Notes under the pieces: generated by a model
The model's database searches: none
What the model saw: the letters and a program-made list of their open reading frames with translations, nothing else
Told to the model about the DNA's origin: nothing
Assembly: GCA_963575745.1 (NCBI GenBank)
Contig: CAUYUJ010018574.1
Location: forward strand, 41,001-105,000
Length of the DNA stretch: 64,000 bases
From: Prorocentrum cordatum
Lineage: Eukaryota; Sar; Dinophyceae; Prorocentrales; Prorocentraceae
Direction: 5' to 3'
Part shown: in pieces, positions 1 to 17,810 of the stretch
Position numbering within the stretch: the first letter of the stretch is position 1
How the letters are laid out: every line of letters begins with the position of its first letter
Translations under genes and position numbers: made by a program

Positions 1-13
1 TCCTCATATCCGG

Positions 14-499
14 CTATATTGATGTCATCAACACGTTTGGCTGTGAGCAGGAACTGCTTGTCTCGAACACCGCGTCGTAAGACGCGGGTCTGAGACCAAA
101 ACCTCTCGTGGTCCTTCTGGGCTTCAGTGAGAAAGCTCTGCGTGCATCCATGGTGCCGGTGCCTGGTTCGAGGCACTGCAGGCAGTGCTTCGACTCGCCG
201 TAGTGCTCGAATCCTGGGAGGGATCGAAGCACCGTAGCCGATCCAGGCGGCAAGGTAAAGCGCGCCACACGTTCCATCTCACCAGTTGCCACGGCAAGTT
301 CCTGGTAGGTTAGCCCCCTCAGAAAAGCCATGTTGATATCAAGGGAAGCAATGACACATTGCCTCTTGCACGCTGCCGCGCTTGCGAGTAATCTCTGACC
401 TGGCCGCCGCGCTATCCCTGAGAAGGTTGTCGCATCAGAAGCTTCGAGGCCCATGAAATCCCGAAGCACCAGGCGCAATCGGATGGAACCTCTACCCAT
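14..499 (-). pseudogene. Copia-like reverse transcriptase, N-terminal part
   Basis: The 161-residue frame contains SLDINMAFLRGL, the copia-type form of the first catalytic Asp motif (Asp-x-x-x-Ala-Phe-Leu-x-Gly). It is followed by LPPGSATVLRSLPGFEHY and LQCLEPGTGTMDARRAFSL, the region leading toward the palm. The second Asp pair would lie beyond base 1, so activity cannot be judged. It is the 3'-most part of the large element and is separated from the upstream linker by stops between 500 and 577, so it could not be translated as part of one polyprotein from this copy. Confidence 0.7.
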
Positions 500-577
500 A
501 TGCGCACCTCGAAGTCATGATGCTTAACGATTTAGATACATCTCGCATCTTGAAAAATTTGTTGGCAAACCATGCCT

Positions 578-1397
578 TCAGTTCAGTATATAAGCCCTCG
601 ATTCTTTCTCGGGATTCGCAAAAATGTCGGCCTTCGCCAGGAGGTCATCTTCCTTGGCGACCGCAGCTCCTTTTGCAGCGGCGGTAACATATACCCGCAT
701 GGTGGTTACAAGGTCGACATATAATATCCTGCGCTGCTGTTCAGATAGGACTACCATTGCCATTTCTACCACGAAGCAGAATTCTACATTTTGTCCGTGT
801 TCGCCCGAATCCAACCAATACGTAAGCGTGGCCTTCGACCGTGGAGCATACTTGGACATGATAAGTCTCCTCGGTGTCGGAGTCGCGTGAATATCCCCAC
901 TTGGGCAGGTGCCCCCGCTGTTCTTCAGCTACAGTGACCAGCGCACTGTCGTCGGTAATCATCTGTGTGGGTACAGTGTAAAGGTCATCTAGTGGAGTTG
1001 CCTCCAGTAGTTCCCTTTCGTCATGTAGTTCTGTGCACCGCACTTTCATAATATGTGCCTCGAGATCCGCTTCTGATCCCTCATATATCGTAGGAAGACG
1101 TCCATGTTCCTGTGGTAGTTCGGCTTCTGGGGCTTCTGTGGCGTTTTCGTCTTGTGCCGGCATGTCCGCCAGTTCCTCAAACTTTGTCATAGCATGCTCA
1201 AAGCCCGCCTGAGGTTCAGTGGAGCTTTGGCACTGGATGATTCTAGAATGTGCTGATCCAGTTATATCATGAATATTCAGGGCAGGGCCTTCTGCGCCAC
1301 AGCAATGGCAACCTGGATTTACATCGTTGTCATAATGGGTCAATGTGCAACTGTCAGCGTAAGCTACCGGAGGTAGCTTATGGATACTCTTGGCCAA
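578..1397 (-). pseudogene. Copia-like polyprotein, acidic linker between integrase and RT
   Basis: Two overlapping frames (1397-741 and 859-578) read as one broken segment. The first is acidic, with a run ending in LEATPLDDLYTVPTQMITDD and then HLPKWGYSRDSDTEE. The second carries SKATLTYWLDSGEHGQNVEF and a helical Ala/Lys-rich stretch before the reverse transcriptase. The frame change near 860 marks a small indel. There is no enzymatic motif; this is the spacer expected between integrase and RT. The assignment rests on position and uniform strand. Confidence 0.5.
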
Positions 1398-2018
1398 CCT
1401 ACTAAGACTGCATTCTCGATGCGGAAGAAGTTTCTGATAAGGTACTGCAGTGCCAGATGTACCTTGGGAGATAGTCGGCTAGCACTGGTCATCTGAAGCG
1501 CCCCCCTTTGGTCGGGACAGAGCCAAATGTCATAGCAGGTCCCCCCGCAAGCAGACTGGCCACGAATGTCAACACTGTCCGTAATGCAGCGCTGTCGGAG
1601 CCGATTTCTCTGGCTACCAAAGCTTCGATGTAAAGTGAATGTCGTGCATCGCCATATTGGACTTGTACACGCGCGGCTTCCCACTCGAATGATAACTTGA
1701 CCCCCGTCGGGATCACGTCGCGCAACTGGGAACGGGCCATTCTAGCCGCCCCAGGTCGTCCTTCGTAGTTGTGGGACCATGGTAGTCAACCAAATCTCCT
1801 TCCTCGTAATAATACTGACCGGTAATTGTTGTTTTAATACGTAATGCACAATTGGTCTTGTCTACTGCGGTAGCCTGTGTGATAGCTTCAATGCATACCC
1901 TGCGTATTACCTGTTCCCCAGAGTGGTCAGACGCTTCTGTTGGCAATTCATGGTCCAGCCCAGGCAGGTCAGGGAGCATTGCCAGTTGCCGTGCAAACAT
2001 ACCACTATACGGAGACAC
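1364..2018 (-). pseudogene. Copia-like integrase, C-terminal region (frameshifted)
   Basis: Three frames (2018-1713, 1740-1489, 1684-1364) tile this stretch. The first begins MSPYSGMFARQLAMLPDLPG, which resembles the segment after the integrase catalytic core, and continues with EGDLVDYHGPTTTKDDLGR, an SH3-like C-terminal strand region. The next two carry VQYGDARHSLYIEALVAREI and the downstream helix. Two frame changes break the reading. A 14-bp hairpin at 1535-1548 codes Ala-Gly-Gly-Pro-Ala inside this part. Confidence 0.6.
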
Positions 2019-2019
2019 C

Positions 2020-2398
2020 TCATTCTAGAAGGTCAATGCATATGCGGCAAAACAGGGCTTCGTGCAGTAATCGTGTGAACACAGGAGGTACGTCTATAAC
2101 GCGTTGTCCACGCGCGCGCATCCTCAGCTCAGTGCCCTTTGCCTTAAGGACTGCCCTTGCAGTGTCTTTGTTAAAGGCACCCTCCCCATCGGAGTAGTAC
2201 CTTGGCAGGTCTAAATTGCATCCAGCACTGCTGATACGCATCTGAGATACTGGTCATTGTCTTATCTGGTATCTCCATTCCAGTGGCACATCGAATACAA
2301 CGATCAATTATGTGAAATAGTTTGTGCTCCTGTTTGCAGAACATAAGGTCGCATTCGCCTTCTTCATTGAACTTGCCAGGTAATGCAGTGGATGGCAC
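2020..2398 (-). pseudogene. Copia-like integrase catalytic core (frameshifted)
   Basis: Two overlapping frames make up the core. In 2398-2171, FNEEGECDLMFCKQEHKLFH holds the first catalytic Asp (ECDLMF) of the DDE triad, followed by the strand and helix IDRCIRCATGMEIPDKTMTS. In 2241-2020, RYYSDGEGAFNKDTARAVL gives the second catalytic Asp in the typical Asp-Gly-Glu/Gly setting. The expected Glu would lie about 35 residues later, where the frame reads LLHEALFCRI. A frameshift near 2200 separates the two Asp residues, so this integrase is inactive. Confidence 0.65.
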
Positions 2399-2525
2399 AA
2401 CGGCGCGCCCTGGCTTGTCCCAAGCCCTGCGCCCCCGGCATGCGTCGCAGACGCCTTTGATCAGGTTGAGCCTGGCGCTGTCCAGACCTGCTTTGGTTAA
2501 GAGTTAAGATGAGTCTCATCTTAGG

Positions 2526-3096
2526 CTATTTAGTAAAGAACCGTCGCAAATGTAGCTTCCGCAACTCGCGTGTTACCACGCTTGGGTCAAGGCTTCGTAA
2601 GTTTTGTAAGCTGATCTGAACTTCGAACCTTGACCAGTCTGGGAGTCGTGGGCGTGCAGCAGGGTTACCCGCAGGTGGCGGTGGAGGCGGATATCCTCCC
2701 TGCTGTCGGCCACGTCTGGCTCTGATATGTGGCAGCCGGCGGTGGTCACCCAAGCTACCAGCTCCACTCGAGGCAGGTTGCCCCGCAGCAGATTCAGCAG
2801 CATGTCTGCCTACTGTAATGTCGTGGCTGCTGGCGCCAGATGTGGGGCCAGCCCTGGAGCCGGGTCTCGGCGCTCGTAGCCGCACAGGTGCTGGTGCGGC
2901 TTGCGCCTCGAGTGGTGGCGCTGCCGGTTCGAGATTGTCCGCGGTTGTCGAGCATTTTCCAAGGTCTGGCAAACTTGCATTTGCCAGGTGCCCGCAAGTG
3001 ACCAGGCTTGTTCCGGCCGTAGTTCTTCTTGCAACTCGGACATTCAATGGTAGTCCTCCTTATCATACCACCTGCAATGTTTAGGGTCTCTGTCAT
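2526..3096 (-). pseudogene. Zinc finger and pre-integrase segment of copia-like element
   Basis: Two frames overlap. The upstream one (3096-2794) contains IECPSCKKNYGRNKPGHLRA followed by PGKC, a Cys-x2-Cys ... His ... Cys finger. The other (3047-2526) ends with DWSRFEVQISLQNLRSLDPS and then ELRKLHLRRF, the pre-integrase segment that precedes the core. Between them is a Pro/Gly-rich linker carrying two hairpin elements (2659-2672, 2773-2786) that code Ala-Gly-Asn-Pro-Ala and Ala-Gly-Gln-Pro-Ala. Confidence 0.55.
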
Positions 3097-3212
3097 GTGG
3101 GGGGGGGAAACGCATACTCACATTATCTGCACATGCAATACATCCTCATATTTCCGAGGGCGGTCTCGTGATTGACCCGTCGGGTTGTCGAGGGATAGCT
3201 GGGTCGTCCAAA

Positions 3213-4522
3213 TCAAATCCCAGCGCGTTGGTGACGAGGACGGTGGAACAATAAGGGTGGCCATGAAAGGGGCCGCGCTTCACTTGGATAGATCGAATGC
3301 GATCTGCACTGCATCGACAAAAAGGGACCGCATCTTTGAGGCATAGTGTGCAACCATAGACAGTTCTTTATCACATACCGAGGCATGTTGGTGATGGCCA
3401 GTACATTGCTTTCGTTCAAAAGGTGCAAGTTAGAGACGATGATTGGCCATAGTATGTCGGCTTCCACATCAATACCCCATGGGAATCACCTAGGCCAGTA
3501 GTACTTTGATCCATATGTACGCTGCAAGTGCCCTTGCATGTGGCCAATGTTGTCCATGGCGGCATTTGATCCACCCCGGTGCCCACTGATTATTCTCGGA
3601 AGTAAAGCCGTCGAAGGTCGTTTCGACGCATGGCAACTTTCCCACAAAACTTGATATGTGGAATGTCTTATTTGGCGTTCATGTCACGTGTCCTAATTTG
3701 CTTGGACATTAAAAAACAAGGTGGTTCAGTCGTTCTGCAGTTAGGTTGCAATTAGACAACGTTGACGAAGCACACGTCTACATGATGCATCACTGCATCC
3801 TGGGCATCCTTGTTTCCAAAGTCAACATATGAACGTTTGTCTCGGTCTCCTCCAGTAGTCAAACCTCAGCTGAATGCTAACTGCGATATCCCCCCGCTTC
3901 CTCCACACAATTCCAACATATCGACCTTATTGTGTCGTCCGTAACATAAAGTCGGGATTAGGGAGATCGTCTGCATGCGCGTCCGCTGGTATCCCCGCAG
4001 GTAGCGCGATGAAGGTTTCTTGTTCGTCATCGCTCTCCTTGTCGGAGTCGAGGGGGACATGGATGTAGTAGGCACTACATCCGAGACCCTTTGGGTCGTC
4101 ACCGCAGTCGTCGTTGCCATCTTCGATTACGTGGGGTATCTTGCGTGGCTTGATGCCCGCTTCCTTGTCGGCTTTCTATGATCCTTTTTGATTGATCCGG
4201 GCATCTGTCGGTAGCGCTGTCTGTTGCGCAGCGCAGGATGAACTGAGTGTCGGAGTCTCGGGAATAGAGGGGAGCACGCGGCCGCGCTCAATCGAAGGGG
4301 AGGAAGACAATCGTCATCGACGAACGCAACTCGCCTTGGACGCGGTCGCTGGCCCTCTTGTCCGATGAGAACCGGTTCCGGCGGTTCCCAGTACAGTCGA
4401 GTACAAATATTTGTCGCACCATTCGGTAACGGTGCATTGTAATTGTACTCGGTAGGCTGATCCTGGATCTCGACGTCTTGTATACTAGCGTTGTCGCCCA
4501 GGTTCATTGTTACCCGTCTCAC
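3213..4522 (-). pseudogene. Methyltransferase-like module of copia-like element
   Basis: At 3925-3866 the minus frame reads VDMLELCGGSGGISQLAFS then a TGA stop. Glu-Leu-Cys-Gly-Gly-Ser-Gly-Gly resembles the glycine-rich SAM-binding motif I of cytosine methyltransferases. The same frame continues past the stop (GLTTGGDRDKRSYVDFGNKD, then VMHHVDVCFVNVV) and, after another stop, LQPNCRTTEPPCF, where a Pro-Cys-type catalytic motif would be expected. Downstream pieces include DIPHIKFCGKVAMR near 3650 and a Cys/His stretch KQCTGHHQHAS near 3400. Cytosine-methyltransferase genes captured by retroelements are known in Symbiodinium; whether this module is one of them is inference. At least four stops make it dead. 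Confidence 0.45.
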
Positions 4523-4599
4523 GACATGGCCCCATTCAGGGCCATTCTCAGGATACTAAACGTGAGTTCGAGCCCCATTTATCCACTCCTGCGTGGATG

Positions 4600-5337
4600 C
4601 TAAGATGTACAGCACTCGCGTGGTTTCTTTATTGTATGCAAATCAATTTGGCCAATCAGCCGTGCAGTCATGATAGCCAGCGTGTTGTCACGCCACTCTG
4701 CCTTCTGAGCGCCTTGGCCATGCCAGTCCAAGTCATGCTCAGTAAGTTGCGCAGGTTCCCCCGCAGCTTGGCATGTGCATCTCCACGCGTTAATTGGAAT
4801 GCGCGCGTAGGTCGTTGCCACCTGCAGATACGATCCGCTGGGCAGCTTACTTGAACGGCCAACGCGGCAGCATCGCATACGCATGACCTGCAAGTCTAGA
4901 TCTTCAACAGCATCTCGTTTGGGACCTTGTTTCCAGACGTAACCTGGTGGTCCCACAAGCACTATAGACATGCGTAGAGCCCGAGCTTTAATCATCAGAT
5001 TTCGGATGCGTTGATGATGTGGCCCTGCCCGCTTCCCAAGCAACCTGAAATACCAGTCCGCGTGCGTTGTCGCCCATGGACATTGACCATCCCCCGAAAG
5101 TAGAGCACCCAAATACTGTGCACGTGTACAGGTCATAACCTCTGTATGTGCGATACGGTCGCACATGTAGCCACGAGCTCGAAGTTCGGGGCAACCTGTC
5201 CGTATGTCCTCGATGACAAGTGCACGAGAATGATAATGATGCGATGAGCGTTCATTTGCTGCAGTGGCCACACAGCCGGGTCCACTGCTGCCTCTGGCGG
5301 CCGCGCAGCGGGGCTTGCAAATGTCCCTGGCGCGCAC
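4600..5337 (-). pseudogene. Conserved-looking copia polyprotein segment with PSGSYLQVATT motif
   Basis: A 245-residue frame between retropepsin and the methyltransferase-like module. It contains VLVGPPGYVWKQGPKRDAVE, then VMRMRCCRVGRSSKLPSGSY followed by LQVATTYARIPINAWRCTCQ, and DLDWHGQGAQKAEWRDNTLA. The Cys pairs and the Trp-x-Cys-x-Cys could bind metal. I think it belongs to the methyltransferase-like part of the polyprotein but cannot name a fold. A hairpin at 4751-4764 codes Ala-Gly-Glu-Pro-Ala right after the Cys-rich stretch. Confidence 0.4.
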
Positions 5338-5445
5338 GGCCGGCGCCTGGGAAAAGCATGCAGGCTTGGCCGCGCAAGACGAGAGAACCTCAGTGTTCGG
5401 CCTGCCGGAGCAAGCGCGAGTGGCCGCGACGCGCGCCTGCCCCCG

Positions 5446-5889
5446 TCACTCATTTTCAAGCGATGGGGGCGCCCAAATGCCCGTGGCATGCTGCGCTGCT
5501 GAGCCACTGCTCGAAGTGAAAATACCAAACTTCTCAGCGGCATCATCTCCTCCTGCAGGTGCCCCTGCATTCACGTCGAGCGGCGCCCACTTGCTGACCT
5601 CCTCGTAGAGGGCCTGCAGATACACCTTCGCCTGCAAATTGCGCAAGGCGAAGTCCTGATCGGCCGGCGTGGGGACATTCCCGAAGGACGTGCTCCTGCG
5701 ATGCCACGTCTCCAAGGTGTTCTTCACCAAAGACTGGATCGTGAAAGCAAGCGTCTCCTCGTTGATGGAGAAGCAGTTGCCCTTGGTATCCTGAGACATC
5801 ACATATGCATGGGCATCGCTAGTAGCGGGTGCCCCCGCACTGCTCGACGCAGGTTGCCCTGCAGCTGGCTCTGCGCCAGCTGCCTCCAT
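5446..5889 (-). pseudogene. Linker after retropepsin, rich in AGxPA hairpins
   Basis: A 147-residue frame, out of register with the retropepsin frame it overlaps (5799-5889), so a frameshift lies there. It starts with Ala/Gly/Pro repeats coded by two hairpins 10 bp apart (5849-5862 and 5825-5838), continues with a helical region (LAFTIQSLVKNTLETWHRRS, YLQALYEEVSKWAPL) and ends with a third hairpin (5555-5568) coding Ala-Gly-Ala-Pro-Ala. No known domain. Confidence 0.4.
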
Positions 5890-6443
5890 GACCAGTAATG
5901 GGGCATCTTCGCAGTGAGGATCGGCCGTGGTAGAAACGATATTGAGCCTTTATCCCCCGCCGCGGCCCCGCGCTCGTCGACCTCGAGCGCCAAGTGCCCC
6001 GATGGCGTTTTCATCAAATCAAATACCCTGGCGCCTTTCCCAAGGAGGAGCCTGTGCATCTCAGAGCCGGGGATGGCCATCTTCTCGCGCCCCTGCCCCA
6101 GGATAGCAGGGGGATTCCCCCCTGAACCCTCAGTCGCGTTAGCTGAGTACGCGCCCAGTCTCGGCGCGACGGGTTCCCCCGCGGGATCTCTTCTCCTCTT
6201 GCGCGCAACGTTGCAGCGCAAGGACTTGTCGCAGACAGCGGCGCCATGTCCCACTCCGGACACGCCTAGCCTCTTCGTCAAATTCAGCTTCTTGATGTCG
6301 TGCCCGTGGGAGCGGGGCACGCGCTCGAATGTCTGCGCCGTTTTCAGACCGACGATGTTGATGTCGCTGCCGATGTCCAACAGGACCGCCAGCATTCCGT
6401 CCACCATGGTCCCACTGTTCGCGGCCAGGGCCAATTCATGGCG
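5799..6443 (-). pseudogene. Retropepsin-like aspartic protease of copia-like element
   Basis: The frame contains MVDGMLAVLLDIGSDINIVG, matching the active-site loop of retroviral-type aspartic proteases (hydrophobic-hydrophobic-Asp-Thr/Ser-Gly-Ala/Ser). Here the loop is Asp-Ile-Gly-Ser, so the usual Thr/Ser is Ile, which would probably impair catalysis. It is followed by LGVSGVGHGAAVC, the flap-side strand region, and later MKTPSGHLALEV. It is in the same frame as the RING segment upstream, separated by one TAG at 6444-6446. In a live element it would cleave the polyprotein. Confidence 0.6.
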
Positions 6444-6446
6444 CTA

Positions 6447-7844
6447 TCCAACTATACCTGGCATTTCGGACAGCGTAGTTCCACACGGGCCATTGCGACG
6501 CCTCTGCCCTAACACCCATTCGTTCTTCGCCAGGGTCGCGAAGACGTTCGTGTACCAGCGGGCCTCTTCCCCAGTGATGGGGCTCCTTTCGAAGATCCAG
6601 GCCGTCGGGCACTCGTCACGCATGTGAGGGCGTGGTGCAGATGAGAGCGGAATGTTCGCAAACATGTCCTCATCGGCGCGCGTGGCGACCTGTCCGCCTG
6701 TGTTCACTATCAGCACAGCGTGTAGCACGTCGCGCTCTGATGTGGCACTGTTGCCGCTGCGAACGCTCACGAGGATTTCCGTCCTATGTTGGCTGCGCGG
6801 GCGGATGTCTCGCCCGTAGGGCGTGCATGCATGTGGTGCTTGGAGCCGCTGTGCATGTCTCTGGGTGGCTCTCTCCATACGCCTCAGCCACAAATTATTG
6901 GCAGGTAACGCCGCAGGTGTTGTCGCAGCAGGCGCCCCTGCATTGTTAGCTGGTTCAGCAACGACTGGCACAGGCGCATCCGTGGCAGGCACGGTGGCTG
7001 CTGTCGCCTGCGCCGCATTGGATGATGACGCAGGTTGCCCCGCAGGTGTCGTTGCGGCAATTGCTGCGTTGTTCGTCACCATCGCCGTGATGCGGTCGAG
7101 CTCTCCGCGAAGGTCTCTGAGCTCGTCAGCCCCGCGGAGTATCTCTTCATGACGAGTTGCTGCATCTTGGCCCCCGGCTAGGGCGCAGTGAAACTCAGGT
7201 GCGCTGAGACCAACACCCCTGCAAATAGCGCAGGGAGCCTCACTCGCGGCACCTTCTAACGCACCAGCCAACTGCCGATCCACATGCGCATGAGCCACTC
7301 GATCCCAGCATTATGCATGAAATATGTGGCCACACTGAAGCCCCCAGACCTTGTCGTGATTGACGAAGTTGCCCAGACATATGACACGCTTGTTGAAGTC
7401 ACCGTCGCCGATGGTCGGCGGCGTTGCCAATGGCCTGATACGCGTCTGGCGTTCCAGCCTGGACTCACCAATCTCGCACTGGATCGGTGGGGCCGATGGC
7501 GACTGCATGGCTGCGAGCGCTGCCAGGTTGAAAGCAAGCACCCCCGCAGAAATTAGAATGGCAGGTTGCCCCGCACGACCCATCGGCCGGCGCGCCTGCC
7601 GCTCCTGGTTCCGGCGCTGGCGGGCCAGCTGCATGGAGAGATTGGCCTGCTGTGTCTCGTGGATGGCCAGGATCTCTGGGCGCACCGCCCCCACGGACGA
7701 TGGCGCAACCAAGCCAGGGGCCTGTTGCATCGCATCAGGATCCATGGGAGTGACCAGATAGCCGCAATGAGGAATCTGACCCAGTACTCCAGGCTCGTAT
7801 CCGGAGCCGCGTGATAGAAGTCGTCGGCTGTCGCCCGAACACAC
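6447..7844 (-). pseudogene. RING-like zinc finger segment split by an in-frame TAA
   Basis: One minus frame runs from 7844 to 6447 with a single stop, TAA at 7311-7313. The reading is RVICLGNFVNHDKVWGLQCG, then HIFHA, stop, CWDRVAHAHVDRQ, and later PCAICRG. This is a RING pattern (Cys-x2-Cys ... Cys-x-His-x2-His-x2-Cys ... Cys-x2-Cys) with the first Cys replaced by Arg and the stop in the two-residue gap before the sixth ligand. RING fingers usually act in ubiquitin transfer; a role inside a retroelement polyprotein is inference. Ala-Gly-Gln-Pro-Ala hairpins flank it (7030-7043, 7561-7574). The N-terminal part is Gln/Arg-rich and helical. Confidence 0.55.
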
Positions 7845-8641
7845 GGGTTATCCGGCTGCGATCCCACGCGAGGATTGCCCGCCACCTGAGCGTGGTAGTC
7901 CGGAACCAACGGTGCATACATCGGCGGTGCTGCTGGTCGCTCAGCAGCCGTCGGATCGCATGTCGGGTGGCTGAAAAACACTGGAACATACCCGTGCCTA
8001 TTGAGATTGTCCGGCGACGGATTTGGATCCGGAACAAGCGCCCATGGGGGTGTCCAGCTGGCGCTCGGGAGGTCGATGCCGCCCCGACGCATGCTCTGCA
8101 CGGCCTCGCGCATCTGCCTGCGCATCCACTGTTGCTGACCCATCAAGCTTTCAATCCTCTGGGCAGCGTCGCGGTCGGGGAAAGCAGGTTGCCCCGCAAG
8201 TGGACGCGGTGATGCGAACGGCGATGTCGCCTGCAAGGCCTCGTAGAGCTGTGGGTCCATCCGAATGCTCTGGGGCCTCGCCTGCAGGCTGTTGGTGGCC
8301 CCAGCACACCGTGGAGTCCCAAATGGAGCCGCAGCCCTGCTCACGGGCGCGAACGAAGCAGGTTGCAGCGGAGGCGCTGGCAACTGTTGCGTCTGAGCAC
8401 GCCGCGGGTCGTTGGCATGCAGCCCGTCAATGGGCGTGATTCCAGTGGACGTCATACCAGACACGTCCGCGCTCTGGGCCTGAATCCATGATCCATATGA
8501 GCCCCCTGCAGGTGCCCCCGCTTGGTATCCCTCTTGCATCATAAACACCGCAGTGAACTCGACTCCCTGCATGGGCGTCGGTTCTAGGGGGCAAACAAAC
8601 CTACCTCGCTTTTGACCACCCTCGCTTCCAAGAGATACCAA
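7553..8641 (-). pseudogene. Proline/alanine-rich polyprotein segment upstream of the RING
   Basis: A 362-residue frame, Pro/Ala/Gln-rich, with tracts such as PLQPASFAPVSRAAAPFGTP. The meaningful reading leaves this frame near 7800 and continues in the RING frame, marking a frameshift. Hairpins at 8508-8521 and 8184-8197 code Ala-Gly-Ala-Pro-Ala and Ala-Gly-Gln-Pro-Ala; a decayed one lies at 8358-8371. No catalytic motif is visible. Confidence 0.4.
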
Positions 8642-9251
8642 GCGATGCTAAACTACAGCCTGTACTGGCCAGGGCGCTTGACGAGAGGAGTCGCGTGGCA
8701 TGACTTGGTTCTGCCTGGAAGCGAAAGCGGGGCAGGTAATTCACTCTCTAAGGTTCGGGGCACTTGAGGTTGTAGGGGGTCTTAGGTATGAACCAATTCT
8801 TCAACGAAGATGCACCGTCTGGAAACTCATATATATATATATATATATACACATATGTAGTTGTATGTATATATATATGTGCATATATATATATATATAT
8901 ATATCGGACGGAAGTACGTTGTCAGCACGCAGATTTCTCCGCTCGTTGTCCCAAATGCACAAGCGGGTGATCCACGCATGTCCCACTCGATCGCATCCAC
9001 ATTGAGTCGGGTTCGGTAAGACGCCCATGAGCTGAACGATGTGGGTCGGCGGGATTTTGCCTTCCCGACCTGCCGTCAGAATACTGCAATTTGCTGAGCG
9101 CCAAATTGCCATATGGTCACAACGTATGCGTTTTTGTTTTCAAAACTTGCCATACTTAGTCTCCAGAATCAACGCGCAGGACGGACTGTTATCTCCAGGT
9201 AGATATGGGCATCCATGGACAAACTGTCTGCCCCTTCCATTGACAGCGTCA
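8642..9251. other. Non-coding spacer with TA dinucleotide tracts
   Basis: Two (TA)n tracts at about 8829-8848 and 8883-8904 are separated by a TATG-rich bridge. Nothing else recognisable lies in this stretch, which interrupts the polyprotein fragments of the large element and may be a later insertion or expansion. Confidence 0.6.
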
Positions 9252-9986
9252 TCAGCACGTCAGGACGGTACCACGAATATAATAACAAGGCGCCCCTGGT
9301 GTCGTCAGATCAATTATTCCTTTGCATGAGGGTTCAGGGCGCATCATGCCAGGGCTGCTATGCCCACTGCTTGGACGCAGAAAATACGTCGGATGAGTCT
9401 CGCTAGCGAACTTACACTTCTGCACCTGGAGCCTGTTCTTCTGCATGCCGGCGCTGTCGACCATGCCAATCAAATTCAGCACCGCCAATGCCCGATATGC
9501 CCAATGGCGGTTACTGAGGCGCTGCCGGACAGCACTCAGGTGGCGCCTGTGCCAGTGCTCGCGGCCCTCGGGCGGCCAGTTGTTGAGCAACTCCGAGAGC
9601 TCCACCCAGCCGTCGCGCTCGTCGAAGGACCGTGCCGCTGACGAGAACCTATCAGAAACATGGTTGCGATGAAGCGGCTCATGACGAGTAGCTGCGGTGA
9701 GCCATTCTGAACATTTACGCCGTTCATCGGCGCTTAATGTTGCTCCAACAATTCTCAATTCCTCGAGGATACTATTCAAGTATATCTTCTCAGAGCGGTA
9801 CCTAGGAGCAGGCTCTTTCCGCGGGAGGTTACGCGCAACCTGACGTGCGTGAGCTGCTTCATCAGCAAGTACGGCAGTATCCTCGATGTCGCCCTGCACC
9901 AATGTAGCGATCAGACCCGTCATCGATAAAAGGCTGATGCGCTGGGTTGATCTTCGTTCGATTTGCAATGCGTAGCTTTTCCCCAT
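9252..9986 (-). pseudogene. Possible Tpt1/KptA-like segment of copia-like polyprotein
   Basis: A 244-residue frame with IYLNSILEELRIVGATLSAD, then ERDGWVELSELLNN and HLSAVRQRLSNRHWAYR. The pattern Asp-Gly-Trp/Tyr-Val-x-Leu-x-x-Leu-Leu followed by a helix and a basic stretch resembles the N-terminal winged-helix half of tRNA 2'-phosphotransferases (Tpt1/KptA). The NAD-binding catalytic half was not identified, so the resemblance is tentative. It lies between gag and the RING segment. Confidence 0.3.
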
Positions 9987-9998
9987 CCTTCCTGCATT

Positions 9999-11084
9999 TC
10001 ACTGGCACTTCGGCGGCAAAAGCAGGTTGCCTCGCAGAACGTGGATCCGGCTCATCAAACCGTCTTGCTGGCTGGATTGCTGCAGGCGCGGCCGACGAAC
10101 TGGCGCCTGCTGATCCCCTAGGAGTTCGAGAAAAGCGCGAGCGTCGAAGTCCCGGCATATCTTTTCACCGAGAACTCGCATGTATTGATCTCGGGGGCCG
10201 CCCTTGACGCCTCTGACGCAGTTTCCAATGCCCTCTGATTGGCGCCATGCTTTGATGGGGGGGCGCCCCTCGATGACCCCATCCAGTGCTGGCGCCCAAC
10301 CTGTCCTGGGCGCCCGGCCAGGTGCGGGGCCACGACGGGCCGCCGGCCCCCTTGGGGCGGGCGCGCTGGCGCCCTGGAACGCAGCCGACGCGGCGGCCAC
10401 TGCTGGTCCTCTGGATCGATGTCGCTCAGCAGGTTGCCCTGCAGATCGCTGATGCTCGCTGCTACCAGGATTGGGATGACCCGGGCTATTTCTCTTCTTC
10501 TGTTCGGGCGGCGGCGCAAGTTGATCAGGTCCTGGCGACTCAGGCTGGCTTGGGGAAGTCGAAGATGGAGATAAAAATATAGGCTGACCTGCCCTCGACC
10601 TCGGAGGAGGTGCCTTTGGCGTTGCCCCTGGGGGTGTCAACGGCTGAATTGCGGGCGCCCACGGTTCAACGCGCGTGGGCCCTCTGCTAGGGTTAAGCTC
10701 CTCCGCGTCACCAGGCCTATTGATCGCCGCCCTATTACAGGTGGTTATCCAAACGATCCTTGGTTCGTGGTAAGCGACTACCCTGTCTGGCTCGAGAATC
10801 GCATCCTTTGTAATCCGGTTACCAGGCTCTACTGGTGGATCAATGTCGTGAGTGTAGTCCGCGCCAGAAGCGAGGTCCGCGTCGGAATAGTCCGCGCCGG
10901 ACCCTGGAGGAGCTGCTGCCGCGGGGCCCACTGCCTGAGCAAGGACTTGGTTGCCTGCAGCAGCATCGTCTTCTGGCTGGTCAGCAGCTTCCTTCTTAGA
11001 CGAAGCGGGCCCCCCCGCGCGCCACTCGCGATTGGATACCTTCAGGTAGTGATTAGGAGCAAGATTTGTCCAGCTCGCTGGCAC
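9999..11084 (-). pseudogene. Low-complexity gag-like segment of copia element
   Basis: A 361-residue frame dominated by Pro, Ala, Ser and Arg, with an acidic start (GADYSDADLASGADYTHDID) and a more ordered C-terminus (DQYMRVLGEKICRDFDARAF). Hairpin elements occur at 11005-11018, 10579-10592, 10429-10442 and 10022-10035, each coding a version of Ala-Gly-x-Pro-Ala. It belongs with the gag/linker part by position only. Confidence 0.35.
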
Positions 11085-11552
11085 GAGCTATTTCGAGGTC
11101 TTCAGCTGGCTGACAATCCAGTCTCGTCAACTGCTCGGCGCGTGGAACTTCGCTTGGATGCGCGACGCGACCCCGACCATCACCGCGAGACCAGACCCAC
11201 GGCGTCCGTCCGAAGACGGGCCCCCTTGATGGACGCCTCATGGGGCAGCTGGGTCAGTGGTCAGCAAAATCAAAGCAAGCACACACAAGACGTCGGTAAA
11301 TCTGCCGTTCCTAGATGATGGCCCTCTTGAAGTCCCGCTTTTGAAGAGCCTCTTGTGATTTGACGGCCCCTCCTCCGCGGGAGCGCGCGATCTTGCCTTC
11401 GCCATTTCGTTCAACATTGCGAAGAGAATTCCAGCGCCGAGCCTACTGCTCGGACCAACCTCGGCCCAGTCAGCGTCGCATCGCACCAGGGGGCACGCGT
11501 TGACGAGCTAATCCAATGGTACCATAGCAAACAAAACGCTGCACCTCGCCTT
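11085..11552. other. Spacer inside the element, no supported coding
   Basis: Only short frames occur on both strands, none with a recognisable motif. The base composition matches the flanking gag-like segments, so this is probably a decayed part of the same polyprotein region. Confidence 0.4.
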
Positions 11553-12302
11553 CTAGGCACTCTTCTGGCGGGTTCCCCTGCAGGCGCCCCCCCCATGTTG
11601 GGGCGCCAGGTCAGTCACCCCTCCTTGGCGGGGCCCCTGGGGCCCTCGCATCAAGAGGGTGAGGGCGCATAATGCTGGTAGAGCGAGCGCCGCTGCAGCG
11701 CGCGCGCGAATGTCCGCGCGAATAACTGCGGACACGACCACGGCGTAGCAAACGTTGGTCTTCAGCTTCCACTCGTCGTCATCATCGTCCGAGCGGTTCG
11801 CGCGTTTCCAGACTTGACGGCCTGTCGATCGCCCCCGGCGGCTCGGGGGCCGCCTCGCGGCCACGAGGGTAAACTGATGTGTTTCGCTGTGTCCAAGCTC
11901 ACACTGAATGCGCTCTGACAGGTCGCCAGCATCTCGCGGGCTTCCCTGCGCAGGATCATCGTCATGTGCTGCCATGTTTGTCGGGCTGCCAATTACCTGG
12001 GGATAAAGCATCATCTGCATGTCCTCGTCTGTCGAAGGAACTGTGGCTTCTGAATCCGAAGGTGTCCCCGCCATATCTTGGTCTACTTCGGCGGGCACAT
12101 GGAAATCCTCGACACATTCAACGTGTTCAGTTTGCCCCGCGATGGGCATGCCCAGCCAGTCTGCCAGGTTGATCCCATTGTGGCCAGTGAATATATCCTC
12201 GAGGAGCTCGTCGGCGCAATTCTCGAGGGACATACTGACATTCAAATATCTGGCAGCCATGAAGTTAACAACTGTAACTGAGCTGTCGGCAGGGTCGGCC
12301 AC
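11553..12302 (-). pseudogene. Acidic gag-region segment of copia-like element
   Basis: A 249-residue frame: acidic N-terminal two thirds (DELLEDIFTGHNGINLADWL; SEATVPSTDEDMQMMLYP) followed by a basic Arg-rich part and a hydrophobic segment near RAAAALALPALCALTLL. The end carries two overlapping hairpins (11568-11581 and 11580-11593) coding Gly-Gly-Ala-Pro-Ala-Gly-Glu-Pro-Ala. No catalytic motif. Confidence 0.35.
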
Positions 12303-12311
12303 TGGCGTTTC

Positions 12312-13191
12312 TCAATCGACATACGGCATGTCCGAGTCGGTTTGGGCCCGATGCATCGACGGACCTCTGCCTCTCCCATGGCCCGGAGGGCGCGCGCGGC
12401 CCAAATGCTGCGTGCGATGGCAGATATCACAGTCCATCGCTTTGCCGTTCGCGTCTTTCGGGTTGCCCCGACGTCCCTTCCCCTTTCCTGAAGTGCGCCT
12501 GCGATTCCTGCCTGCGCCTAGGAATAGTTCTTCGTATTGCGGCCCAGTAAGGGATGACAGGAAAGCTAACAGACCTCTGCCATGCAGTCGCCGTAAGGTA
12601 CGTGGGCATGTCATAATAGTCTAGGGCGTTCGCTTCGTCGTCTGATGACGCGTCAGCGTCGGTCCAATAGTCGAAGTCGGACTCAGCGGGCTGCCCCGTT
12701 GAGCATACAAGGGTAGTGGCCTGCGCAGGAGCCGCCGTTGCCAGCGGCCCCCAATACCTGGCCCAGGAGTCTTGCGACCCCGCGGCCAAACCACCATTTT
12801 GAACTAATAGCGTGGTGGATTCCTTTGGTTGTGGATCGTCATTCCAGACGTTCGTAGCAGGTTGCCCTTCGTTGGCTTCAGCATGGAAGGTTTCGGTACG
12901 GTGGCCGTGGCTGAAGAGACCAACAATATTGCCAGGGGTTCGCTCAGCGATGTGAGCACATGACCTCATGCGTTCAAGCAGAGAATAAATTTGGTGCTGG
13001 TCCCTCGGCATGCGGTGGTTAAATGGCTGTTGAAATTGTTGTGCGCGCGCCGTCCCCACTCCTAAGGCTCGGAAAAGAATAACCGCTAGAATCCGGAAGT
13101 TGGGGATGTTAAAGCCTGCCGATTCGGCCTCATAGCGGGCTACATCGAAGCGCGCCAATGCCCAATGCCTGGTCGATCCGTTCTCCCGCAT
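12312..13191 (-). pseudogene. Gag region with decayed CCHC zinc knuckle
   Basis: Two overlapping frames (13191-12427 and 12614-12312). The upstream one is helical, then acidic and Ser/Thr-rich, ending in a basic tract (AIRRTIPRRRQESQAHFRKG). The downstream one reads GKGKGRRGNPKDANGKAMDC followed by DICHRTQHLGRAR: a Cys-x2-Cys-x4-His-x4 retroviral-type knuckle whose last Cys is Arg. Knuckles of this kind bind RNA in gag. The frame change near 12.5 kb and the lost ligand show decay. Confidence 0.55.
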
Positions 13192-13258
13192 GGACTCGAA
13201 AGTCGATGAGAGCTGTACCTGAGTTGAGTTGGCGTTTCTAAATTCTCAAACTTCGTCC

Positions 13259-13699
13259 TCAGGAGGAACATAATGTAGGTGACGCCATCAGTACGGCGGC
13301 CACGTATGTTGACGCCAAATTGATGACTGCTGGGGGGATTATCATGGATATGGTCCGTGCGAGGCCCCCCAGACCGCGCGGCGGTGCTTCAGCTTGTTGG
13401 GAGGGCGTCATAGTGCCTATGGTCACGTTGATCCAGGCATGTACCTCTCGAGCGAATTCGCGGAAAAGTACTTGACCGGCCGGGTCCCTGCGGGGACCGG
13501 TTGTTTTTGTGTCGTCTCCGCCACGCATGTGCCCCACAGCACACGCGATCGCAACCCATGCGAGACCAAAAATAGTAACACAAATCCAATGGCCCCGTAG
13601 GTCGTGGTCGGATGTGGTTGGCTGAGGTTTGTGGTGTTTTGTTGCAAGCCTGCGTGGGGGTGGAGGCGGCACAATGTCGTATCGCATGTTTCCGTGCAT
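13259..13699 (-). other. Unassigned frame with one possible membrane segment
   Basis: A 146-residue frame with PPPPPRRL near its start and a hydrophobic stretch GHWICVTIFGLAWVAIACAV, then a moderately hydrophobic C-terminus. A second frame (13803-13423) overlaps it. It may be the 5' end of the copia-like element or unrelated sequence. I do not recognise it. Confidence 0.25.
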
Positions 13700-13979
13700 G
13701 TCGAAGAAGTTTCAAATTGGAGTAGGTGGGTGGACTTCAGGAGTGTAGTAGCGCAGGAATGTAGGATTCGAGTAAGAGTCCTCTGCGAGAGCAGAGGTAG
13801 CACTGCAAGTGTCCTTGCGGTTGTGCGTAGTTCGGAGGTGAGGGGGTGAGATCGAAGTGGAAAGGAGACCCACCCAACCGGGACATCGGTTTCGGTTTTT
13901 TGTTTTTGCGTGCAGGCGTGCGGGCGAGGCGAAGCTGCGTGCGCGGGCGAGAAATAAGTCTCCTGTAGCTGAGGCGCGG

Positions 13980-14100
13980 CCGGACCAAAAGTCTCCCTTC
14001 CGGCAACCGGTGCCCCGCGGTGTCCCGCTGGAGTCCCGCCCGGGGGCCGGTGGCGCGCGGTGTCCCGCCGGTGTCCCGCCCGTGTCCCGTCGGTGTCCCG
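13980..14100. repeat. GGTGTCCCG-type minisatellite
   Basis: Imperfect 10-19-bp repeats of CGGTGTCCCG and variants (CGGTGCCCCG, CTGGAGTCCCG) directly precede the GAT triplet array, whose interruptions (GGTGTCCCGATGATG, GTGCCCCGATGATG) contain the same word. The triplet array may have expanded out of this minisatellite. Confidence 0.7.
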
Positions 14101-15000
14101 ATGATGATGATGAGGAGGAGGATGATGATGATGTTGATGATGATGATGATGATGTTGATGATGATGGTGATGATGATGGTAATGGTGCTGATGATGATGG
14201 TGCCCCTATGATGATGATGTTGACGATGCTGATGATGATGATGATGGTGACGGTGGTGATGATGATGATGGTGGTGCCCCGATGACGATGATGGTGTTGA
14301 TAATGATGATGCTGCTGATGATGTTGGTGCCCCGATGATGATGATGAAGATGATGATGAAGATGATGGTCCTGAAGATGTCGTTGATGATCATATGATTT
14401 GATGATGCTGATGAAGATCCTGATGATGGTGCCCCAATGATGATGATGAGGTTGATGATGATGCTGTTGATGACGATGCTTGTAATGATGGTGACCCGGT
14501 GATGATGATGATAATGATGGTGATGACGGTGCTGGTGATGAGGTGATGCCGATGATTTCGATGATGGTGGCCCAATGTTGGTGATGATGTTGCTGCCGTT
14601 GATTATGATGATGGTGTCCCAATGATGTTGATGATGATGAAGATGTTGACGATCATGATGGTGACGATCATGATGGTGTTCCGATGGTGATGATGTTGAC
14701 GATGATGGTGTTGATAATGATGTGGGTGGTGTCCCGATGATGATGATGTTGATGCTGTTGTTCATGACCATGGTGATGAGGTGATGATGATGGTGGTGTT
14801 CCGATGATGATGAAGATGGTGTCCCGATGATGTTGATGATGCTGATGATGGTGACGATGATGGTGCCCCGAATATGGTGATGATGGTGATGATGATGTTG
14901 ATGTTGATGCTGGTGATGAGGTGATGAGGATGTTGGTGTCCCAATGATAGTGATGATGATGTTGGTGACGCTGATGACGGTGATGTTGATGATGATGACG
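14101..15000 (+). repeat. Interrupted (GAT)n array with GGTGYCCC spacers
   Basis: About 900 bp of GAT triplets broken every 30-60 bp by GGTGTCCCGATG or GGTGCCCCGATG. On the minus strand a frame stays open through it (Ile/His/Ser-rich, from 15563 to 13737), but composition and lack of motifs point to a repeat artefact. Its N-terminal 130 residues before the repeat include one hydrophobic segment (LWWSALALLLTIHGTIWW). Confidence 0.9.
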
Positions 15001-15250
15001 ACGAAGTTGATTGCGATATGGATTGCGATATCGATAGTGCGACCGATAGTTACACCGAACGTGAGATCGATTGTGCGATCGATAGTGAGATCGATCGTGA
15101 GATCGACTGTGAGATCGATAGTCAGACCGATTGTGAGATCGATCGAATGAAATAGATCGAATGACATCGAATGTGAGATCGATCGAGTGAGATCGGTCGA
15201 GCGAGACCGATTGTGAAATCGATAATGAGATCGATAATGAGACCGATCGA
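15001..15250 (+). repeat. GATCGATAGTGA-type satellite, first locus
   Basis: Degenerate 10-14-bp units built on GAGATCGATAGT with variants GAGACCGATTGT and GATCGATCGTGA. The same word family recurs at 20940-21255. Rich in GATC and ATCGAT. Confidence 0.85.
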
Positions 15251-15682
15251 GTGAGACGTTGGTTCCTTCCCCCCCCCCGAACCTCCTTATCACCCGAAGG
15301 GTGGTCGTAGGTATGTACATTTCTCCGCGCAGACCCACTGCACCCTGATGCTCCACCATATCAGTAGTCCACCAGATAGTGCCGTGGATGGTGAGGAGTA
15401 AAGCAAGAGCTGACCACCATAGGCCAGCTCCGCTACCAAGTTTGAAGGGGGCCGGCAGGCCCGACCAGAAGCTACGCCTTAGGCGAAGCACGGCTCCTGC
15501 TTTGTTGTATCGTAGTAACGATAGTCCCAGTCGTAGGAGATCGTCGCGGGAGCGACGGGCCATCTCAAGCGAAGGATGTTTTCGGTCTCGATGGCGAATC
15601 GTACACCTCGCACTGAGGCGTAGTCAGATATAGGCGGCCGGCCGCTTGAGCACAAACGGCCGCGGACACACGCTCGTTGCCT

Positions 15683-17810
15683 CTCGCCTGTAGCCCAGCT
15701 CACTTTAGAGTCCAGGAGGCCCTCCAAGACGGTCCAAGACGGCCCTGAGTCGCCAAACGATCGCTCGAAGACGCCCCAGATGGCCTCAAGATGGCGCAAG
15801 AGACTTCCAAGGCGCCCCAAGAGGCCTCCAAGAGGTCCCCAAGAGGGCCCCCAAATGGCAACAATCATTGTTTTCCCATGCGTGTTTGAAGAATTTAGTT
15901 TGGCATTCTCGCCTTTTCGGGTTCCCGATGCTCCAAGACGGCCCAAGAGGCCCCCAAGACCACCACAAAACAGCCCAAAAGGCCTCCAAGAGGGCCCCAA
16001 GACGGCCTAAAAGCGCCCTAAGACGGCCCAAGAGGCGCGGAAGACGGCCCAAGAGGGCCCCAAGACGGCCCCAAAAGGACACCACGAGGGAACACGAACA
16101 GAAAATCCGAGCCTTCCGCCCCACGGGACCCCCAGGAGGCCCCAAGAGGCGCCCAAGAGGACCCAAGAGGCCCCCAAGAGGCGCCCAAGAGGCCCCCAAG
16201 AGGCCCGCCCCAACACGGCCCCCAAAAGGCCTCAAGACTGCTTCCAGGAGGCTCCCGAGAGGCTTCCCACGAGATCCCAACGAACATCCACTAAGCTTAT
16301 AACCCGCAATCCAGGCACGGTGGCGGGACTTGACGTAGGCAGCTGGATCCGCCGCCCTGTTGATTCATCACATGGGTGCCTGGCGTGCTGAATTTCTTAC
16401 GGTTTTGGTTTTGGTTCTTTTCCAAAAGAACTCTGCCAGTGGGCTCCGGCGCGTCCCGCCGGGGTCCCGGGAGGATGCCGAAGGGTCTCTGGTTGCAAAG
16501 GGTTTTTCCGTTCCAGACGGCTCCAAGATGGCCCAAGATGGCCTCCAGGATGCCTCCAAGACGGCCAAGATGCCCTCCGAGACGGCTAAGATGGCCCCGA
16601 GATCCCTCCAAGACGGTCCAAGAGGTACCCAAGACGGCCTAAGATAGCCTCAAGATGGCCCAAGACGGCCCAAGAGGCCCTCAAGAGGCCTCCAAGACGG
16701 CCCAAGAGGCCTCCAAGAGGTGCTCCAGGAGGCCCGAAGAGGCCAAAATCGTTGATTTCCGTCGGGTTTTTGAAAGACTTTGGCATTTGCGCCTTTTCGG
16801 CTTTCCGACAGCCCAAGACGGCCCAAGAGGCCCCCAAGATCACCCAAGAGGCCTCCAAGATGGCCCCATGACGGCCCAAGAGGCTCCCACGACGGCCACG
16901 GGCCCGAAGACAGCCCAAGAGGCCTCCAAGACGCCAACGATGGCCTCCAAGACGCCCAAGGTGGCCTCCAAGACGGCCCCGAAGCGCCCCAAGAGGGCCC
17001 CAAGTCGGCCCAGAAAGGCCCAAAAGACGGCTCCCGACAGCGTAAGACGTGCCAGGAACCCACCAAGATGGCCGAAGTTGGCTCGAAGCTGGCCCAAGAC
17101 GGCCCAAGAGGCCCCCAAGAGGGCCTCCAGGAAGGCCAGAAGAGGACAAAAACCTGAATGTTCCTAAAGTTTTTGATGGGTTTGGACACTTGCTTCTTTT
17201 CGGCCTTCCGACGGCCCGAGACGGCCCAAGAGCCCCCAAAGATCGCCGAAAGATCGCCCAAGAGGCCTCCAAAATGGCCCCAGAACGGCCCAAGAGGGCC
17301 CCAAGACGGCCCCAAGAGGCCCCCAAGACGGCACAGGAGGCCTTTAAGACGCCCAAGATGGCATCCAAGACGGCCCTGGAGCATTCCAAGAGGGCCCCAA
17401 GTCGGCCCGTAGAGGCCCCCCAAACGGCTTCCGACGGCGTCAGACGGACCAGGAGCCCACCAAGACGGCCGAACATGGCCTTAAGATGGCCCAAGACGGC
17501 CCAAGAGGCCTCCAAGAGGGCCCACAGGAAGACCCGAAAAGACCAAAATCATTGATTTCCCATTGGTTTTTGAAGGATTGTGGCATTTGCTTTTTGTTCG
17601 GCCTTCCGACGGCCCGAGACGGCCCAAGTGCCCCCAAAGATCGCCCAAGAGGCCCAAGACACGGCCCCAAGAGGCCCCCAAGACGGCCCAAGAGGTCTCC
17701 AAGACGCTCAAGAAGGCCTCCAAGACGGCCCAAGAGCCCTCCAAGACGTCATCCAAGAAGGCCCGAAAGGGTCAAACTGTCTTCCGGACGGCCAAGATGA
17801 CCTTCCAGAT
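15683..17810. repeat. CCAAGACGGCCCAAGAGG satellite with about 400-bp higher-order period
   Basis: Short units of 12-18 bp (CCAAGACGGCC, CAAGAGGCCTC) fill about 2.1 kb. Conserved A/T-richer blocks around CTTTTCGG-x2-TTCCGACGG end at about 15920, 16800, 17203 and 17601; the last three are 403 and 398 bp apart, giving a higher-order repeat. On the minus strand long frames of Leu-Gly-x-Leu-Leu-Gly-Arg-Leu-Gly stay open, and two blocks give similar basic peptides (QMPKSFKNPTEINDFGLFG and QMPQSFKNQWEINDFGLFG). I treat it as satellite, not genes. Confidence 0.85.
16290..16500. other. Unique-looking insertion in the satellite
   Basis: About 210 bp without the CAAGACGGCC unit, containing TTACGGTTTTGGTTTTGGTT and a GGCGCGTCCCGCCGG stretch. 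It falls where another 400-bp block would be expected and may be a diverged block or a small insertion. Confidence 0.4.

Follow-up and report, generated by a model that had tools for sequence, protein, structure and literature searches.

The stretch analyzed here, referred to as the window, comprises 64,000 nucleotides of the dinoflagellate Prorocentrum cordatum (contig CAUYUJ010018574.1, positions 41,001 to 105,000). Its left part carries, as judged from its protein-level matches, a Ty1/copia-like long terminal repeat (LTR) retrotransposon on the minus strand that is decayed in the window, and a 14-bp word, GCRGG-N4-CCYGC (GCRGGNNNNCCYGC), recurs along this element. Pfam yielded no match above cut-off in 20 open stretches from the window (RVT_2 of a window piece at 0.067, below cut-off); the element was recognized only through a relative on genome contig C1, where the word is dense at 2,045,815-2,061,374. 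This C1 element of 16.4 kb has open reading frames (ORFs) and was handled as two consecutive loci, L035 and L036. Its LTRs of 293 bp are 98.6% identical (L035 84-376; L036 6630-6921); the pair was checked in this relative, the left part of the window copy lying outside the window. The stop-to-stop frames of the C1 element measure 816, 2,306, 1,235 and 1,074 codons and contain an RVT_2 reverse transcriptase (RT) above the curated cut-off (2.5e-11) and a weak zinc knuckle, zf-CCHC, below it (0.0022). A DIGSN stretch, which we take by eye to be protease-like, and a presumably integrase-like stretch have no Pfam match.

A tblastn comparison of the window with the C1 element revealed 27-61% amino acid identity over the longer pieces, in an order that is colinear but broken; the RT match at 844-50 is colinear at 59.8%. 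The gag start lies near 15503 and the RT-like match ends near 50. Part of the relative is still uncovered where this match stops at base 50, and so the element apparently runs on past the left edge of the window. The parts of the element are:

1..15503, minus strand: body of the decayed Ty1/copia-like LTR retrotransposon (tblastn matches colinear with C1)
15503-11874, minus strand: gag match to C1 (tblastn)
11460-5985, minus strand: ORF2-like match to C1 (tblastn)
5235-1754, minus strand: ORF3-like match to C1 (tblastn)
2075-50, minus strand: ORF4/RT-like match to C1 (tblastn)

The word occurs 19 times as an exact match in the 64-kb window, whereas 100 dinucleotide shuffles averaged 1.18 and never exceeded 4, so that chance fails as an explanation. 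With 17 of the 19 matches at 905-11949, the statement of a sequence-only reading of the window that a 14-bp word is repeated within one retroelement was borne out. In all 17 exact words of window 1-13,000 the spacer is 4 nt, and no exact word with any other spacer from 0 to 12 was found in this region. The same reading had described all copies as lying in the same orientation, always coding Ala-Gly-x-Pro-Ala (AGxPA) in the local frame and being absent from the other 50 kb, and each of these points held in part. The word is its own reverse complement and orientation is carried by the spacer only: a GNNA spacer is present on the minus (coding) strand in 13 of the 17 words, on the plus strand in one (2659) and on neither strand in three (6928, 11005, 11936). 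Alignment to the related polyprotein covered 11 of the 17 copies, eight of them in the AGxPA frame and three out of it (905, RGHLP; 1535; 11936). Two exact words do lie beyond the element region (27881, 35742), neither with a GNNA spacer. Hairpins with other stems were found at 2568, 3524, 8929 and 13805. From the gag end onwards the sites are:

13805..13818, minus strand: non-canonical hairpin GCAAG-GACA-CTTGC, in gag (stem scan)
11936..11949, minus strand: hairpin word with loop GAAG, gag region, outside the AGxPA frame (exact word)
11568..11581, minus strand: hairpin GCAGG-GGAA-CCCGC, A-C at pair 3 (exact word)
11005..11018, minus strand: hairpin word with loop GGGG (exact word)
10429..10442, minus strand: hairpin GCAGG-GCAA-CCTGC (exact word)
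8929..8942, minus strand: non-canonical hairpin GCGGA-GAAA-TCTGC, coding ERRNLR (sister alignment and stem scan)
8508..8521, minus strand: hairpin GCGGG-GGCA-CCTGC, AGAPA (exact word)
8184..8197, minus strand: hairpin GCGGG-GCAA-CCTGC, AGQPA (exact word)
7561..7574, minus strand: hairpin GCGGG-GCAA-CCTGC, AGQPA (exact word)
7030..7043, minus strand: hairpin GCGGG-GCAA-CCTGC, AGQPA (exact word)
6928..6941, minus strand: hairpin word GCAGG-GGCG-CCTGC, AGAPA (exact word; sisters mostly have a GGCA or GACA loop)
5849..5862, minus strand: hairpin GCAGG-GCAA-CCTGC (exact word)
5825..5838, minus strand: hairpin GCGGG-GGCA-CCCGC (exact word)
5555..5568, minus strand: hairpin GCAGG-GGCA-CCTGC (sister alignment)
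4751..4764, minus strand: hairpin GCGGG-GGAA-CCTGC, AGEPA (exact word)
3985..3998, minus strand: decayed hairpin GCGGG-GATA-CCAGC, AGIPA, at a place homologous to a C1 AGQPA (alignment to C1)
3524..3537, minus strand: non-canonical hairpin GCAAG-GGCA-CTTGC (stem scan)
2773..2786, minus strand: hairpin GCGGG-GCAA-CCTGC, AGQPA (exact word)
2659..2672, minus strand: hairpin word, AGNPA on the minus strand, GNNA loop on the plus strand only (exact word)
2568..2581, minus strand: non-canonical hairpin GCGTG-GTAA-CACGC (stem scan)
1535..1548, minus strand: hairpin GCGGG-GGGA-CCTGC, a few bases from where a C1 AGKPA maps (alignment to C1)
905..918, minus strand: hairpin GCGGG-GGCA-CCTGC in another frame (RGHLP), near C1 RGHPP, with the local alignment gapped (alignment to C1)

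The repeated unit is, as predicted from its sequence, a sense-strand RNA hairpin of 5 bp with mostly G-C and C-G as outer pairs and a GNNA tetraloop, and the word is the commonest sequence version of this one RNA structure. The predicted fold of four coding-strand versions, 5 bp plus tetraloop, has an energy between -9.3 and -4.9 kcal/mol, compared with only -1.6 kcal/mol and an open pair 3 for GCGGGGCAACCTGC in antisense. Window 5500-8700 matches 39 other places in the genome at 75-85%, and of 2,290 first-look candidates for sister copies 40 were scored and 30 loci aligned, including L005, the window's own copy. These sisters contain 301 exact words with a 4-nt spacer, while each of the other spacer lengths accounts for 0-10. 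Of the 301 loops, 289 start with G and 256 have A as their last base; GNNA words number 246 in sense and 0 in antisense orientation. At pair 3/12 they show A-T 101 times, G-C 53, G-T 143 and A-C only 4 times (a further 19 of 320 words have other bases). Loops are mostly GCAA, GGCA and GACA in the window family and GYCA in the C1 family, and stems mainly GCRGG..CCTGC and GCGGG..CCCGC, respectively.

Furthermore, the hairpin is in excess beyond the word itself. Watson-Crick 5-bp GNNA hairpins number 27 in L035, 15 in L036 and 33 in L044, against shuffle means of 0.87, 0.56 and 0.61, and 4, 3 and 4 in antisense orientation. The C1 element as a whole thus has 42, compared with about 1.4 in shuffles and 7 in antisense, which corresponds to roughly one hairpin per 300-400 nt of sense RNA. 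Seventeen of the 42 have other stems that are matched on both sides, some overlapping one another, among them GCGGA/TCCGC, GCGGC/GCCGC, GCAAG/CTTGC, GCGTT/AACGC, GCGTG/CACGC and GCGAG/CTCGC; the outer G-C and C-G pairs are mostly constant and the inner pairs vary on both sides. As controls, six further copia-type loci were taken from the RVT_2 matches in this genome, two of them with masked stretches; they contain 1, 0, 2, 0, 3 and 2 such hairpins, and the word itself once in all. Four C1 hairpins carry a 5-nt loop, GCCAN, on the same stem (L035 2566, 3070, 5886, 9313), all unchanged in a second copy of the element, C2. Rfam gave no match at gathering score for window 1-16000 and, for L035, L036 and L044, a single match below it (SgrS, E 0.35). 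As a separate observation, three tandem GCGGA-TCYY-TCCGC words at L036 1023-1066 code ADPSA/ADLSA units; they are palindromic, and their sense loop is not of the GNNA type.

Counts over both strands of the whole genome, controlled by counting the reversed pattern, follow the same pairing logic. The pattern GCRGGGNNACCYGC occurs 61,787 times against 6,571 for its control; on contig C1, 27 of 36 among the matches listed fall in the one element. With G-U at pair 3 there are 14,238 matches (control 1,509), with A-C 2,951 (control 938). At pair 5 the compensated A-U version GCGGAGNNATCCGC is enriched about 20-fold (5,695 against 292), part of the count coming from antisense tandem units, two of them in the C1 element, and the one-sided A-C mismatch GCGGAGNNACCCGC is not enriched (1,861 against 3,078). 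Beside this, GCGGAGCAATCCGC is followed by GCGGGGYAACCTGC at exactly 178 nt start to start at eight places among the matches listed (C2:1779938, C56:41634, C78:66668, C107:77652, C181:191927, C184:100466, C200:12256, C212:30365), perhaps another repeat family with two hairpins.

To our mind selection on the hairpins at the RNA level is very probable, and the comparison of the C1 and C2 copies carries most of the weight. The two are 92.2% identical over 9,506 aligned bases and differ at 4.6, 3.3 and 15.7% of the three codon positions; both therefore descend through constrained coding sequence. The comparison covers 27 of 28 C1 hairpins (four with a 5-nt loop), the other one being deleted in C2. 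Not one of 270 stem bases has changed, where 18.2 changes are expected at the element's codon-position rates; local flanks differ at 8.4%. The loops have three changes, two at position 2 and one at position 3; one of the three lies in a tandem stretch whose alignment is uncertain. In copies in the AGxPA frame 0 of 80 wobble bases have changed, against 212 of 1,397 fourfold sites elsewhere, and 20,000 random placements of 23 hairpins gave a mean of 15.7 changes and a minimum of 1, none reaching 0. Control stems with loops of 3, 5, 6, 7 and 8 nt together changed at 38 of 570 bases (46.6 expected). We rely on this pair of copies because parsimony on the sister tree is weak: pair 3 shows 13 pairing-preserving and 3 breaking changes, the other pairs 36 and 47, and the 29 GC>GT against 10 GC>AC changes are only suggestive (outside the hairpins, C>T 1,723 and G>A 1,445). 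The idea of RNA structures in the sequence-only reading is thus supported by compensatory stems, GNNA loops, sense-strand bias, the preference of G-U over A-C and frozen synonymous stem bases.

The encoded peptide follows from the hairpin, AGxPA being merely its commonest coding. Of the 24 canonical words with a 4-nt loop in L035, 21 encode AGxPA and three lie in other frames (516, 625, 640). The 21 copies use GCG, GGG and NCA throughout and CCC in 20 cases (CCT in one), while the Ala codons in the same frames are used 84/82/99/84 times and GGG makes up 59 of 250 Gly codons. Residue x varies between S, P, T and A.

The sister copies bear on the origin of the sites. In the oriented alignment the words form 22 clusters, all on one strand; in 14 of them the exact word is present in 13-26 of the 30 sisters and in eight in 1-6 only. 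Two of these eight are gapped only where the fetched loci end. Another is an extra hairpin in four of the 30 loci, on a 24-bp in-frame tandem unit adjoining the similar unit at window 5555..5568. A further one is window site 8929..8942, at which most sisters keep a different stem and four of the 30 have GCRGG..CCTGC, a change on both sides; the remaining four clusters have the word in 1, 1, 1 and 4 loci. Compared with C1, the C2 copy contains two additional tandem units, of 30 bp and 48 bp, and lacks one hairpin owing to a deletion (direction not polarized). Flanking duplications of 2, 3, 4 and 5 nt occur at 3, 1, 0 and 0 of 28 hairpins in L035 (1.9, 0.5, 0.3 and 0.0 expected) and at 3, 2, 0 and 0 of 31 in L044 (2.1, 0.5, 0.3 and 0.0 expected). 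One hairpin, at residue 183 of the C1 RT-side frame, arose by substitution in place, since the alignment with homologues from other sources (e.g., AGKPPITFGY) is gap-free there. Two sites are common to the C1 and window families (L036 1293 and window 3985-3998; L035 5886 and window 8929-8942) and one pair lies within a few bases (L036 3848 and window 1535-1548). L036 4504 and window 905 are nearby only, the local alignment being gapped there, and some C1 hairpins, such as L035 625 and 640, have no counterpart in the window. Two sister loci on different contigs, L011 and L012, have the same score, length and hairpin count and are identical in the stretches compared, so that they represent either a recent duplication or an assembly duplicate.

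Some features of the element stand apart from the hairpins. The ORF2 polyprotein of C1 (L035 frame 2596-9510) contains a Tpt1/KptA RNA 2'-phosphotransferase domain (residues 922-1061, 9.4e-15) and a RING finger (residues 1622-1675, 2.9e-7). We know of no Tpt1/KptA domain in a retrotransposon, and none is reported in the titles and abstract openings of the literature searched. A protein search with ORF2 matched only two P. cordatum proteins, at 86 and 90% identity over 5 and 9% of the query. In the window, the gag part of the element has a long low-complexity tract of GATGATG-type and 12-bp GATCGA-type repeats (14067-15260).

What reads these hairpins is a question of its own. We give about an even chance to the view that the genomic RNA carries them as repeated binding sites for a protein, most probably the Arg-rich Gag of the element, and thus as dispersed packaging signals. 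Each hairpin would be recognized by its GNNA loop and the base of its stem, with Gag as the likeliest protein to bind there, and many weak sites would jointly mark, condense and package an unusually long RNA of 16 kb. In the linkers of the polyprotein, where the protein is free, the hairpin would take its preferred sequence and hence spell Ala-Gly-x-Pro-Ala; in conserved domains it would be built from whichever codons permit. New sites would come from tandem duplication or substitution in place. The Gag of C1 and the Gag relative P0037 have a conserved Arg-rich block (23 Arg/Lys in 40), which precedes the zinc knuckle in the element, and the block is also present in L043; the best 40-residue stretches in the six control loci have 13-17 Arg/Lys. 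Somewhat short of an even chance is the wider picture that the whole 16-kb RNA is a chain of about 40-60 docking hairpins read by Gag, a packaging code that would be selected strongly enough to dictate linker peptides and be present in more than 50,000 copies in the genome.

The nearest competitor, which we regard as possible but clearly less probable, is that selection acts on the hairpins as RNA structures for the sake of something else than Gag, namely a host RNA-binding protein, the pacing of ribosomes at linkers between domains of this very large polyprotein, protection from silencing, or an enzyme of the element such as Tpt1/KptA. The RNA-level evidence is the same for this explanation as for Gag, the canonical hairpins lie outside the Tpt1 and RING matches of ORF2, and the Tpt1 match is strong; however, nothing ties Tpt1 to the loop, a fixed GNNA loop is not needed for ribosome pausing, and the hairpins at the end of the last open frame (L036 6507, 6526) would have no pacing role. 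Frameshifting and splicing signals seem unlikely for dozens of sites within open reading frames. Introner elements, which the available part of PMC10666404 describes as introns with inverted repeats at their ends, were set aside as well, since no intron is needed to account for the hairpins. It is improbable that the palindromes act at the DNA level as sites of transcription or silencing factors. Plant Sireviruses, also copia-type, do carry repeated palindromic words with a CGG-CCG core (PMC2829016, in the part available), but DNA palindromes are strandless, and here G-U is kept far more often than A-C, the GNNA loop is confined to the sense strand in the sisters, and the sites are spread over coding sequence, the LTRs of C1 being free of the canonical word.

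To a functionless origin, in which copying or template switching during reverse transcription homogenizes the word within each element, we assign an equally small probability. Family-specific stem flavors and tandem copy-number differences are in line with it, yet such a process would need to end precisely at the hairpin borders at dispersed places while the flanks diverge, leave the central loop bases untouched and introduce corresponding changes into the two arms. Even less credit is due to mobile 14-bp mini-inserts analogous to Rickettsia palindromic elements, which had been proposed from the sequence alone. Those elements are far longer mobile inserts; both are in-frame palindromes within genes, but the unit here has 14 nt and is not bounded as an insert. 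Near-identical 14-mers at many places with unrelated flanks and the extra copy in four of 30 sisters could point to mobility. However, 14 is not a multiple of 3 and copies occur in three frames, the sisters share positions (identical places in sisters being the sequence-only reading's own ground for refutation), the one interior gap site and the extra copies observed consist of tandem units, 24-30 bp in length, target duplications hardly exceed chance with none of 4 or 5 nt in either set, one site arose in place, and stems of other sequence belong to the set. Just as doubtful is a kept peptide, be it a flexible linker or a cleavage site of the element's own protease. The large share of copies in the AGxPA frame, in L035 and in the window, agrees with it, but the wobble bases are invariant while x changes freely, other frames are used and the enrichment extends to GNNA hairpins coding for something else than AGxPA, so that the suggestion of selected linker peptides as the cause is not supported.

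Several observations weigh against dispersed packaging signals read by Gag. The link to Gag is drawn from the co-occurrence of the array with the Arg-rich block, and because only three of the six control loci show a zinc-knuckle-like motif, with the Gag coverage of the others uncertain, the contrast with the controls is thin. Of 36 homologous proteins of the RT part, 33 have no AGxPA and three have one each. The Gag homologue P0037 (49%) has four AGQPA, of which one is without a counterpart in C1 and two stand at the place of a single one in C1; two shorter Gag homologues have two AGQPA and none. These counts place the array in a single lineage, with sites that come and go slowly. P0037, a Gag relative from a public sequence source (ena), carries its AGQPA at linker places, and the array may exist outside the P. 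cordatum genome. In the 30 mostly decayed loci of the window family, Watson-Crick GNNA stems other than the word number 14 in sense and 21 in antisense, so that the non-canonical set is clear in the C1 family only; a stem scan of the 30 sisters separated GNNA poorly from other stems in either orientation, which we put down to the decay of most sisters. The C1/C2 comparison is a single copy pair from one genome, and in it the non-canonical GNNA stems are held less strictly, with 5 of 140 bases changed against 9.6 expected, although pairing survives four of the five changes and is intact in 13 of 14 stems, one being broken. In addition, 20 C1 stems with other tetraloops are unusually conserved (3 of 200 bases changed, 15.4 expected); the constraint may extend beyond GNNA loops, and other tetraloop hairpins may also be functional. 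The genome-wide counts give most weight to the families with the highest copy number, and A-C, although much rarer in them than G-U, does occur at pair 3. A single homogenizing process that acts on exactly 14 nt is formally conceivable.

Small hairpins with a G-led loop that are read by Arg-rich peptides are known from boxB and from retroviral GNRA-type hairpins. The hairpin described here resembles them in its size of about 15 nt, a loop of 4-5 nt with G first and a candidate Arg-rich binder, but they occur in one or a few copies. The dispersed packaging signals of single-stranded RNA viruses such as MS2 are likewise many small stem-loops along a genomic RNA that vary around a shared recognition motif (PMC6281560, in the part available); here the carrier is an LTR retrotransposon, the hairpin is very uniform and binding by Gag is inferred only. 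In yeast Ty1, also a copia-type element, Gag binds its own RNA, and the cis-acting packaging sequences map to +230-580, within the first 580 nt, a region that also holds a pseudoknot and palindromes; unlike in the P. cordatum element, the available part of the source describes no dispersed array of one hairpin (PMC8396678). The Sirevirus motifs are located beside the ENV gene and in the 3' LTR and are discussed as transcription elements in the available part of PMC2829016, whereas those described here are coding, sense-RNA features. No report of such hairpins in a retrotransposon was found in the titles and abstract openings of the open-licence literature searched. We regard dispersed functional hairpins as already known and their setting in a retrotransposon as new.

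In a dinoflagellate genome of 4 Gb, the hairpin can mark one retrotransposon lineage by its sequence. It is also a case of an RNA structure dictating a repeated peptide, which a search at the protein level would mistake for a linker or cleavage motif. Dispersed Gag-binding sites in the RNAs of retroelements are hard to test because, in our judgement, such sites are usually degenerate; this hairpin is so uniform, frequent and strictly kept that binding, deletion and recoding tests would be simple. If the packaging interpretation is true, P. cordatum harbors a retrotransposon with a dispersed packaging code like that of RNA viruses.

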